In this document: positions 21,839 to 25,701 of the stretch, in pieces
How the letters are laid out: every line of letters starts with the position of its first letter
How positions within the stretch are numbered: the first letter of the stretch is position 1
Notes under the pieces: model-generated
Seen by the model: the letters and a program-made list of their open reading frames with translations, nothing else
Databases searched by the model: none
What the model was told of the DNA's origin: nothing
Made by a program: the position numbers and the translations under genes
Origin: Maricaulis sp.
Lineage (GTDB): Bacteria > Pseudomonadota > Alphaproteobacteria > Caulobacterales > Maricaulaceae
Assembly (NCBI RefSeq): GCF_015665295.1
Contig: NZ_JADFAJ010000025.1
Location: 1 to 64,000, forward strand
Length of the DNA stretch: 64,000 nt
Direction of reading: 5' to 3'

Positions 21839-22228
21839 ATGATGTCTCCGGACACGATGGATGCGGTGTTTCAGGCGCTTGCCAGCACAACGCGGCGCGA
21901 GATGCTCGACATCGTTCGCAATGAGCCGGGGTGTTCGGTCGGGGCGGTGGCCAGCCGTTTCGATGTCAGCCGGATCGCGGTGATGCGTCATCTGTCCGTG
22001 CTGGAGGCGGCGGGTCTCATCATCTCGGACAAGCGGGGCCGGACGCGGCATCTCTACATGAATGCGGTGCCGATCCAGATGATCCATGACCGGTGGGCGA
22101 GCGAGTATTCCGCGCTCTGGTCCGGTCGCATGCTGGACATCAAATACCTCGCCGAACAGCGCCGCGCCCGCGAGGGCAGTGGCCCGGAGACCGCCGATAT
22201 TGCTCACAAGAAGGGGGAGCCAGGATGA
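21839..22228 (+). CDS. ArsR/SmtB-family transcriptional regulator
   Basis: A 129-residue winged-helix protein. The helix-turn-helix spans roughly residues 30-65 (SVGAVASRFDVSRIAVMRHLSVLEAAGLI) followed by the wing SDKRGRTRHLY. I see no ELCVCDL-type metal-binding cysteines, so it is not a classic metal sensor. ArsR proteins paired with an SRPBCC gene are a recurring two-gene unit. It overlaps the SRPBCC gene by ATGA. It probably represses its own operon through the palindrome at 21808-21827. A second ATG three bases downstream of 21839 could also serve. Confidence 0.9.
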   Translation: MMSPDTMDAVFQALASTTRREMLDIVRNEPGCSVGAVASRFDVSRIAVMRHLSVLEAAGLIISDKRGRTRHLYMNAVPIQMIHDRWASEYSALWSGRMLDIKYLAEQRRAREGSGPETADIAHKKGEPG

Positions 22229-22817: not shown

Positions 22818-23387
22818 ATGGCAAATTCCCCCGAGGACATGGCCCAGGCCATGATCAACAACATGCCGGCCAAGACCGGAAAATCGCTCGATGAATGGGT
22901 CACGATCGTCAAGGCGAGCGGGCTGGAAAAGCATGGCGAGATGATCAAGCTGCTCAAGGGCGAGCACGGCATGACGCATGGTTTCGCCAATCTGGTGGCG
23001 CATGAGGCGAGAGGGCGGGTGGTCTCGGCTCCGGCGCCGGCGGAGGATCTCGTCGCCGCACAATATGCCGGCCCCAAGGCCGGGCTGAAGCCGATCCATG
23101 ACCGGCTGGTCAAGGCCGTGGAAGCGTTTGGCGAAGATGTCGAGCTGGCGCCCAAGAAGGCCTATGTCTCGCTGCGCCGGGCCAGGCAGTTCGGCCTGGT
23201 CCAGCCATCGACCAAGACGCGCCTCGATCTCGGCCTCAATCTCAAAGGGGTCGAGCCGTCCGGTCGGCTGGAAGCGTCTGGCGCCTTCAACGCGATGTGC
23301 ACGCACCGCGTCCGACTTGACACCGTTGATGCGATAGATGGCGAGGTGCTGGGCTGGTTGAGGCAGGCCTATGACGCTGCCGGTTAG
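22818..23387 (+). CDS. DUF4287 plus DUF5655 domain protein
   Basis: A 189-residue protein. The N-terminal DUF4287 part runs to about residue 65 (KTGKSLDEWVTIVKASGLEKH and HGMTHGFANLVAH). The DUF5655 part follows (LKPIHDRLVKAVEAFGEDVE, KKAYVSLRRARQFGLVQPST). Molecular role unknown. It follows the SRPBCC gene by 2 bp and is frequently found with ArsR/SRPBCC pairs, so it belongs to the same operon. Confidence 0.88.
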   Translation: MANSPEDMAQAMINNMPAKTGKSLDEWVTIVKASGLEKHGEMIKLLKGEHGMTHGFANLVAHEARGRVVSAPAPAEDLVAAQYAGPKAGLKPIHDRLVKAVEAFGEDVELAPKKAYVSLRRARQFGLVQPSTKTRLDLGLNLKGVEPSGRLEASGAFNAMCTHRVRLDTVDAIDGEVLGWLRQAYDAAG

Positions 23388-23518
23388 GTCGGTGCGGTTT
23401 ATCGCTGGACAGAGTTGCCGGGCTTCGGCATGGTTGTGGTGAAATCTTGTTGGAAGTTGATGTTATGCGCCAGTTGGTGGGTAAAATCTTGCAGGCGTGC
23501 CGGGGGATGGCCGTCGCC

Positions 23519-23605
23519 ATGTCCGATATGGCTGTGCGCCGTCTTCCGCTCAATTCGATTATTCCCGTCATAGCGCCAGTTGGAGCGACGACGATCACGA
23601 CCTGA
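23519..23605 (+). CDS. Putative ilvA leader peptide
   Basis: A 28-codon frame starting at ATG 23519, with GGGGGA about 10 bp upstream. The C-terminal half reads S-I-I-P-V-I-A-P-V-G-A-T-T-I-T-T before TGA 23605. It has four Ile codons (including ATA, unusual in this GC-rich DNA) and four Thr codons. It lies 28 nt before a strong terminator hairpin that precedes threonine dehydratase, the first enzyme of isoleucine synthesis. The frame can extend upstream to ATG 23465, but the shorter start has the better Shine-Dalgarno. Its role as an attenuation leader is inference from layout and codon content. Confidence 0.6.
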   Translation: MSDMAVRRLPLNSIIPVIAPVGATTITT

Positions 23606-23667
23606 CCCCTTAATTAGGTATCGTGCAGTTTGACCCCGCTCCTGGCACCCAGGAGCGGGGTTTTTTC
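23576..23667 (+). promoter_or_regulatory. Predicted transcription attenuator of ilvA
   Basis: Terminator: a 12-bp stem CCCCGCTCCTGG (23634-23645) with CCAGGAGCGGGG (23649-23660), loop CAC, then six T. Competing antiterminator: CCA (23576-23578) and GGAGCG (23582-23587), both inside the leader peptide, can pair with CGCTCCTGG (23637-23645) of the terminator's 5' arm. A ribosome held at the Ile codons 23558-23572 would leave GGAGCG free. One reaching the stop codon would cover it and let the terminator form. Confidence 0.6.
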
Positions 23668-23691
23668 TGTGCGGTCACCCGGAGCGACAGC

Positions 23692-24957
23692 ATGACCTTG
23701 CCCGAGACATCCCGCCAATTCATGGCGGCTCGAACGACCGACCATCGCCTCGCCGATGCATTTGTCCATGTCGACCGCCTGCGCGCGGACGGGTTTGGCG
23801 GCATTCTGCGCGCCCCGATGATTGCCTCGCCCGGTCTTGCAGCGGCGGCCGGCTGCGACCTGCACGTCAAGCTGGAGAACCTCCAGGTCACGGGGTCCTT
23901 CAAGGAGCGCGGCGCCTATGCCCGGATGGCGGCGCTCTCGCCGGCGGAAAGGGCGCGCGGTGTTGTCGCGGCCTCGGCGGGCAATCATGCCCAGGGCGTG
24001 GCACGCAGCGCCGCCGCGATGGGCATCAGGGCGCGCATCTTCATGCCGGACGGTACGCCCATGGTGAAGATCCATGCAACGCGCGGCTTCGGGGCCGAGG
24101 TCGAGATCGCCGGCGAGGATTTCGACGCCGCCAAGGCGCTGGCACTGGCCGAGGCGCAAGCGACCGGCGCCGTCTTCATCCACCCGTTCGACGACCCTGT
24201 GGTGCTGGCCGGGCAGGGAACACTGGCGATGGAGATGCTGGAGGATCAGCCCGATCTCGACGTGCTGGTCTTTCCGGTCGGCGGCGGCGGGCTGGCCGCA
24301 GGCGCCGGGCTGGCGGCGCGCCGCATCAAGCCGGATATCGAGCTCGTCGGCGTGCAGGCTGATCTCTTCCCGTCCTTCGCCAACCGCTTTCTCGGCGAGA
24401 ACCGGCCGGTTGGCGGCTTCACGCTGGCCGAAGGCATCGCGGTGCGGGAACCCGGCGGGCTGACCGGTGACATCCTGATGGACCTGCTCGACGATGTCCT
24501 GCTGGTCGACGAGCGCCAGATCGAACGTGCCCTCAACCTCTTCATCTCGCAGATGCGGGTCCTGCCGGAGGGGGCGGGTGCGGCCGGGCTCGCGGCCGTG
24601 CTGGCGCATCCCGACCGCTTTGCCGGCCGCAAGGTCGGGCTGGTCCTGTCCGGCGGCAATGTCGATACCCGGCTCCTGTCGTCGCTATTGCTGCGCGATC
24701 TCGCCCGCTCCAACCGGCTTGCGCGGTTCAGGATCGAGCTGGTCGATGTGCCGGGGCAGCTCTCGGCCGTGTCCGACGTGATCTCGCGGGCCGGCGGCAA
24801 TGTCACCGATGTCGCCTATCACAAGACCTTCTCCGACCTGCCGGCCAAGGTGACCTATATCGACATCTCGCTGGAGGCCCAGGACGCCAACCATATGGAC
24901 CGGATCCGCGCCGCCCTGCGGGGTGCCGGTTTCCGGGCCGAGCCGGCGGGGTACTGA
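23692..24957 (+). CDS. ilvA: Threonine dehydratase (threonine ammonia-lyase)
   Basis: PLP enzyme converting threonine to 2-oxobutanoate and ammonia, the entry to isoleucine synthesis. The 421-residue protein has the PLP lysine in TGSFKERGAY near 60, SAGNHAQG near 95, and the PLP phosphate loop VGGGGLAAG near 200. A C-terminal ACT-like regulatory segment begins at about 350 (FRIELVDVPGQLSAVSDVI), so feedback control is expected. ATG 23692 is chosen because it follows the hairpin and has GGAG upstream; the frame open further 5' runs through the terminator. Confidence 0.93.
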   Translation: MTLPETSRQFMAARTTDHRLADAFVHVDRLRADGFGGILRAPMIASPGLAAAAGCDLHVKLENLQVTGSFKERGAYARMAALSPAERARGVVAASAGNHAQGVARSAAAMGIRARIFMPDGTPMVKIHATRGFGAEVEIAGEDFDAAKALALAEAQATGAVFIHPFDDPVVLAGQGTLAMEMLEDQPDLDVLVFPVGGGGLAAGAGLAARRIKPDIELVGVQADLFPSFANRFLGENRPVGGFTLAEGIAVREPGGLTGDILMDLLDDVLLVDERQIERALNLFISQMRVLPEGAGAAGLAAVLAHPDRFAGRKVGLVLSGGNVDTRLLSSLLLRDLARSNRLARFRIELVDVPGQLSAVSDVISRAGGNVTDVAYHKTFSDLPAKVTYIDISLEAQDANHMDRIRAALRGAGFRAEPAGY

Positions 24958-25047: not shown

Positions 25048-25701
25048 ATGAAATTCTTTGTCGACACCGCCGAAACGTCCGAGATCGCCGAGCTGGCCGA
25101 GGCCGGCCTGGTTGATGGCGTCACCACCAATCCCTCGCTGATTGCCAAGTCGGGCCGGGATTTCCTGGAAGTGGTCAAGGAAATCTGCGACCTCGTCGAT
25201 GGCCCGGTGAGCGCCGAAGTCACGGCACTCGAGGCGCCGGCGATGATCACCGAGGGCCGCAAGCTGGCCGAGCTGGCTGACAATGTCGTGGTCAAGCTGC
25301 CGCTGACCTTTGAAGGGCTCAAAGCCTGCCAGGCTCTGACCGCGGAAAACATCCAGACCAATGTCACGCTGTGCTTCTCGGCCAATCAGGGCCTGCTCGC
25401 GGCGAAGGCCGGCGCAACCTATGTCTCGCCCTTCATCGGCCGCCTTGATGATCTCGGCGTCGACGGCATGGAGCTGATCGCCAACCTGCGGACCATCTTC
25501 GACAATTACGCCTTCGACACCCAGATCCTCGCCGCCTCGATCCGCTCGGCCGATCATGTCCAGCAATGCGCGCTGATCGGGGCCGACGTCGCCACCGTGC
25601 CGCCGTCCGTGCTCAGGAATCTGGTCAAGCACCAGCTTACCGACAAGGGTCTGGAAGCCTTCATGAGCGACTGGAAGAAGACCGGCCAGAGCATTCTCTG
25701 A
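25048..25701 (+). CDS. tal: Transaldolase / fructose-6-phosphate aldolase family protein
   Basis: A 217-residue short-form transaldolase (TalC/FSA type) of the non-oxidative pentose phosphate pathway. The start [24 protein letters not shown] near 24-31, the Schiff-base Lys83 in [17 protein letters not shown] and [11 protein letters not shown] are all present. From sequence alone transaldolase and fructose-6-phosphate aldolase cannot be separated; the broader family assignment is sure. GAGGAG lies upstream of ATG 25048. Confidence 0.92.

Follow-up and report, generated by a model that had tools for sequence, protein, structure and literature searches.

The leader region of ilvA

The window, the 64,000-nucleotide stretch of DNA analysed here, lies within a Maricaulis genome whose genus group comprises 19 genomes, and its ilvA is 89% identical to that of M. 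maris DSM 4734. From its ATG at 23692, ilvA scores above the curated cut-offs of NF005600 and TIGR01127. A small open reading frame (ORF) with a cluster of isoleucine codons and a hairpin followed by a T-run precede the gene, arranged as follows.

23450-23456, + strand: Shine-Dalgarno-like TTGGAAG of the leader ORF; a purine-rich stretch precedes the start in relatives, judged by eye
23465-23605, + strand: leader ORF, 46 codons plus TGA, MRQLVGKILQACRGMAVAMSDMAVRRLPLNSIIPVIAPVGATTITT; same length in the five closest relatives
23558-23563, + strand: Ile codons 32-33 (ATT ATT), the proposed main control codons
23567-23592, + strand: possible 1:2 hairpin, GTCATAGCGCC / GGAGCGACGAC; 96.3% of 54 cells paired in six sequences, with no covariation
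23570-23572, + strand: Ile codon 36 (ATA), the last codon whose stall is predicted to permit the antiterminator in ribosome-stepped folds (codon 37, 36 or 35 with 9, 12 or 14 nt masked)
23576-23587, + strand: segment 2, CCAGTTGGAGCG (codons Pro-Val-Gly-Ala), partner of the terminator 5' arm
23588-23602, + strand: T-T-I-T-T codons 42-46, of which codons 45-46 (ACG ACC) belong to the predicted inner antiterminator stem (5' arm)
23614-23625, + strand: TTAGGTATCGTG, the non-coding 3' arm of that inner stem; GGT.TCGTG is invariant in 6/6 sequences
23634-23660, + strand: terminator hairpin of 12 bp with a 3-nt loop, arms 23634-23645 and 23649-23660
23661-23666, + strand: T6 run of the terminator
23692-24957, + strand: ilvA, threonine ammonia-lyase, 421 aa, with PALP and C-terminal ACT domains by profile matches

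The leader peptide of the window reads SIIPVI, then GATTITT, then stop. An earlier note on this DNA had read a 28-codon frame from ATG 23519, an internal codon for which the five closest relatives have GCG, ACG, GTT, GCT and GCG. Conservation places the start at ATG 23465, 18 codons upstream, which gives 46 codons. The remaining parts named in that note are present as it described them: Ile codons followed in frame by T-T-I-T-T, a 12-bp hairpin (23634-23660) with T6 ahead of ATG 23692, and a CCA..GGAGCG segment (23576-23587) complementary to the terminator 5' arm. The hairpin has a predicted energy of -25.6 kcal/mol, or -26.2 kcal/mol with the U-run. A simple terminator scan returns one site, no more than the shuffle mean of 1.0, so the hairpin by itself says little, and conservation carries the case.

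No sigma-70-type promoter was found for the leader. Rfam places no family over threshold in the leader region 23400-23720, where four sub-threshold families appear (E up to 5), and its matches over the gathering score in the window are two tRNAs only. The plasmid search gave no match. The gene directly upstream of the leader (22818-23384) encodes a DUF4287 plus DUF5655 protein with no function assigned, and an ArsR-type regulator lies at 21839-22228. Downstream, a fructose-6-phosphate aldolase/transaldolase-like gene (25048-25701) begins 90 bases past the ilvA stop and, since the gap is this short, ilvA may be co-transcribed with it here; at L008 and L010 a different gene, identified by eye, follows ilvA.

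Conservation in Maricaulis and counterparts before ilvD and ilvC

This ilvA is found in 14 of the 19 Maricaulis genomes, and in all 14 it is preceded by the leader, the Ile cluster and the terminator. The frame, on whose conservation the earlier note had staked its reading, is kept at every one of these loci with a length of 41-49 codons. At least two adjacent Ile codons occur among the last 12 permissive codons of all 14 leaders, and in 13 of them exactly five codons separate GGAGCG (Gly-Ala) from the stop, the exception being L014. In the window's group, a set of six species (the window included) that is defined by ilvA identity of 84-100% and leader type, not by a tree, the terminator is paired in 94.4% of 72 cells. 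The alignment of relatives to which the earlier note had looked therefore bears it out for the Ile codons and the pairing, but not for the Thr tract, which is present in six of the 14 ilvA leaders and missing from eight.

Five Maricaulis genomes (G070, G071, G074, G075 and G079; loci L028-L032) have no match to this ilvA at 1e-60. They hold only a distant homologue, 32-35% identical, with best E values of 4.7e-40 to 5.3e-43, and no leader is visible by eye upstream of these five homologues. The window's genome has a similar distant homologue (L002), whose best NCBIfam match, hydroxyaspartate ammonia-lyase, is below the cut-off. Outside the genus, a filter requiring terminator plus leader detected the arrangement at 0 of 63 sampled ilvA upstream regions, eight from the same family and 55 chosen from other families among the matches listed; this is absence of detection, because in seven of these regions a terminator-like site occurred but no leader passed the filter, and the upstream sequence of L080 was only short.

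The exact pattern GGAGCG..CGCTCC..GGAGCGGGG occurs at 24 places in 23 of the 137 genomes of the family, and its backward control at none in the same 137. By position and translation, these places sit before ilvA (7), ilvD (10) and ilvC (7). NCBIfam was applied to the downstream gene at two of the 24 (L144 and L146) and additionally at L090 and L120, all other ilvD and ilvC names being assigned by eye; it gives ilvC for L090 and L144 and an ilvD-type dehydratase for L146 and L120, two partial genes that fall short of, or just at, the cut-offs.

Maricaulis carries the gene order ilvD-ilvC-ilvB in the 16 genomes examined (translations read by eye), and all 16 have a leader of the same layout upstream of ilvD, with a run of Leu, Val and Ile codons. 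The ilvD leader of the window's own genome (L120, C20:50200-52400) reads LGLLVLVLITSSITGAVSAPA. In other genera of the family the same layout precedes ilvC (L090, L091, L124 and L140-L145) and once ilvD (L146); with L108-L123, these loci make up the sister leader set. Among the last 12 permissive codons, Ile stands to Leu plus Val as 57:31 before ilvA and as 37:184 before ilvD and ilvC, a contrast whose p-value is no true probability because the sequences are related. This split fits the roles of the enzymes, with IlvA leading to isoleucine and IlvD and IlvC serving all three branched-chain amino acids.

Alignment of six ilvA leaders with six ilvC/ilvD leaders gives z values of up to 6.8 against plain shuffles, with the window leader at 1.8 or below. 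Against shuffles that keep the zones, the 36 values range from -1.3 to 4.4 and only two, 4.4 and 3.7, exceed 2.6. These values do not establish an origin of the ilvA leader as a duplicated copy of an ilvC or ilvD leader. The common layout of the two sets is clear, and a common origin is plausible.

Predicted switch and the threonine codons

We propose, with a probability of about 0.87, that the region is a ribosome-mediated transcription attenuator of ilvA of the trp/ilv type that senses charged tRNA-Ile, and that its Thr codons are stem sequence and not a second sensor. The leader would be transcribed and translated, and when Ile is short the leading ribosome would stall at Ile codons 32-36. 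Segment 2 (CCA..GGAGCG) would then be left free to pair with the terminator 5' arm, and the inner stem CACGACCTGA/TTAGG..TCGTG would complete the antiterminator, letting RNA polymerase read through into ilvA. With Ile plentiful, the ribosome would cover segment 2 and the terminator would usually form. In the six-species group, the Thr codons would encode part of the inner antiterminator stem.

Folding of the RNA downstream of a ribosome stepped codon by codon predicts an antiterminator in each of the 38 leaders scanned, the criterion being a mean arm pairing above 0.4. These leaders are drawn from 40 collected and comprise 14 ilvA, 15 of 17 ilvD and nine ilvC leaders; L110 and L111, which end in ITGVA, were left out, their segment 2 having been missed. 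In 38/38 leaders the main branched-chain cluster ends 0-5 codons before the last permissive codon, with cluster ends taken by eye. In the window, the RNA downstream of a ribosome at ATT ATT, folded alone, forms the antiterminator at -24.9 kcal/mol, with outer pairs GCCA/TGGC and GGAGCG/CGCTCC and the inner pairs given above. Of 137 antiterminator cells, 96.4% are paired, compared with 28-42% after sliding. Covariation of the ilvA structures is not above shuffles, most paired positions being invariant, and that of the ilvD structure is marginal (37 of 500 shuffles). The claim of the earlier note that an Ile stall leads to read-through thus agrees with the Ile cluster in 14/14 leaders, the fixed geometry and a downstream-only antiterminator that is predicted only for stalls no further on than a few codons past the Ile run. 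The blocking zone beyond the permissive codons is partly a matter of construction, because a downstream-only scan cannot see segment 2 once it lies behind the ribosome.

Folds of the whole leader are less uniform. In the window, pairing of 5' leader RNA across the stalled ribosome keeps the antiterminator at or below 0.03 throughout the last 26 codons; the L004 antiterminator reaches 0.01-0.10 at the Ile codons of that leader's run. The strong predicted pairing in the window joins 23465-23520 to 23620-23650, in the terminator region, and would be either an additional structure peculiar to this species or an artefact of folding. In ribosome-free folds, the antiterminator reaches at least 0.6 in 12 of the 14 ilvA leaders, so the possible 1:2 hairpin is not well supported as a protector. 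With the ribosome at the stop codon, the whole-leader antiterminator is over 0.25 in 6/14 (L005, L006, L007, L008, L011 and L013).

In the six-species group the tails read T-T-I-T-T, T-T-F-T-T, M-T-P-T-T and, three times, M-T-A-T-T. Ten of the 15 tail positions are antiterminator-paired and none of these varies, whereas four of the five unpaired positions do (Fisher p 0.004, with columns set by eye, the structure taken from the window's own sequence and six related sequences compared). Codon 43 is Thr throughout, with three variants of its third base, but its first two bases are paired. In codon 44 the first two bases are free; this codon encodes I, F, P, A, A and A and is Thr in 0/6, and codon 42 is Met in 4/6. 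Because the paired tail positions are invariant and most unpaired ones vary, RNA pairing accounts for the Thr codons that are kept. Tract-free leaders end in GALPTPV (five, with one Thr), GAEIASA or GAPLAPA, and L014 has nothing comparable. The ilvD leaders hold an inner stem at the matching place, CTGCC (Pro-Ala codons) against GGCAG, with 97.3% of cells paired in 15 sequences, and tail amino acids therefore seem to follow the stem.

The earlier note had assigned the tract an opposite role, in which an Ile stall gives read-through and a Thr stall at codons 42-46 shuts segment 2 and lowers ilvA when its substrate is scarce. As a conserved sensor or general design this brake is not supported, with the tract in 6/14 leaders only, the kept positions paired and the free codon 44 never Thr. 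Confined to the six-species group, it would work through basal expression: when Thr is short, a ribosome would be parked before a partly permissive stop, and basal read-through would fall. We regard this as unlikely. The downstream-only folds do put all tail Thr codons in the blocking zone, and this zone is richer in Thr in the six-species group (21/60 codons) than before ilvD (22/151) or ilvC (1/71). In the trp system, moreover, the basal level of read-through is ascribed chiefly to stop-codon release (PMC1183508). A Thr stall and normal completion have equal outcomes only in the downstream-only scan, by construction; when the RNA upstream of the ribosome is folded too, several of the six leaders form more antiterminator with the ribosome at the stop than at the Thr codons, in whole-leader folds at L005, L006 and L007, though not in the window.

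When only 60 nt of 5' RNA behind the ribosome may fold, the outcome depends on the footprint. With the footprint reaching 13, 16 and 19 nt back, the window stop gives 0.74, 0.66 and 0.18, and Thr codons 45-46 give 0.16-0.66, 0.11-0.17 and 0.00-0.06. At 16 nt, all window Thr codons fall at 0.00-0.17, and the L007 stop is at 0.51 versus 0.00-0.01 for its Thr codons. A Thr stall could thus lower basal read-through, since the stop allows some antiterminator and the Thr codons allow less. Against this, the gap is small at 19 nt, where any tail Thr stall in the six leaders gives 0.06 or less and the stop at most 0.19 in all six, and at L011 the stop exceeds non-Thr codons at the same place. The eight other leaders have no such tract, the free codon 44 lacks Thr and codon 42 is mostly Met, and the retained Thr positions coincide with RNA stems. 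Thr also occurs inside the Ile run of L003, L004, L006 and L007, four of the six tract leaders, where a stall would count as an Ile stall and so work in the opposite direction. Selection for trimming of basal expression by Thr stalls is not supported by the sequence comparison. Were the brake real, the leader would compute "Ile low, and Thr not low" and cut back a Thr-consuming enzyme.

The E. coli thr leader senses Ile and Thr jointly, both stalls acting in the same direction. A joint sensor of this kind, in which either stall in the control region leads to read-through, is more doubtful still for ilvA. Thr does occur among the last 12 permissive codons in 10/14 leaders (L003, L004, L006-L008, L010-L012, L014 and L033), but the window, L005, L009 and L013 have no permissive Thr. 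Permissive Thr is also equally common before the other genes (11/168 codons for ilvA, 11/180 for ilvD and 14/108 for ilvC), and for this reason it is probably filler one mutation away from Ile.

Least credible is the absence of any regulator, with an ordinary terminator of upstream transcription beside a chance small frame: the position between two same-strand genes and the chance-level terminator scan would suit it, but leader, Ile cluster and terminator are kept together in all 14 Maricaulis species with the gene, the spacing of segment 2 and stop in 13/14, and the same layout recurs before ilvD and ilvC.

The preferred reading, an attenuator that responds to Ile with Thr codons serving the stem, suggests that codons right before a leader stop can be dictated by the antiterminator stem. 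The RNA fold should therefore be checked before amino-acid runs are called sensors.

Relation to known attenuators

Attenuation is an established mode of control for ilv operons, among them one of the related Caulobacter, and what appears new here is the predicted Ile attenuator on Maricaulis ilvA. A search of the open-licence literature by title and abstract opening found no report of a Maricaulis ilvA attenuator or of an opposing-codon leader. Occurring in all 14 Maricaulis genomes found with the gene, the proposed attenuator extends a well-known class.

Amino-acid attenuators of proteobacteria were reportedly predicted by Vitreschak et al. in 2004. The ilvA case resembles them in combining a leader peptide with alternative terminator and antiterminator structures found by comparison. 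For an alphaproteobacterial ilvB leader peptide, a later article cites Vitreschak et al. 2004 (PMC1273637). The ilvBN attenuator of Caulobacter crescentus, as summarised in an article citing Tarleton et al. 1994 (PMC4117421), has tandem Ile and Val codons in its leader and a terminator before the first gene. It shares with the ilvA leader an alphaproteobacterial branched-chain operon, leader codons and a terminator, and differs in that it controls acetolactate synthase, whereas the Maricaulis leader would control ilvA and is dominated by Ile. Actinobacteria have candidate ilvB leader peptides, described as small ORFs in which Ile, Val and Leu codons form runs, with a terminator ahead of the ilv gene (PMC1262725). 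Those candidates differ from the Maricaulis case in lying before ilvB and in codon runs that overlap the terminator, and their mode of regulation is called unclear in that article (PMC1262725).

Within Maricaulis, the ilvA and ilvD leaders form a natural pair whose control codons may split regulation between the branch enzyme and the common enzymes. In E. coli, the leaders of ilvGMEDA, ilvBN, leuABCD and thrABC have codon compositions that match the products of their operons, and the Maricaulis leaders are like them in this match. The arrangement of the genes differs: E. coli ilvA lies inside ilvGMEDA, whereas in Maricaulis ilvA and ilvD each carry a leader of their own, of Ile type for ilvA and of Leu/Val/Ile type for ilvD.
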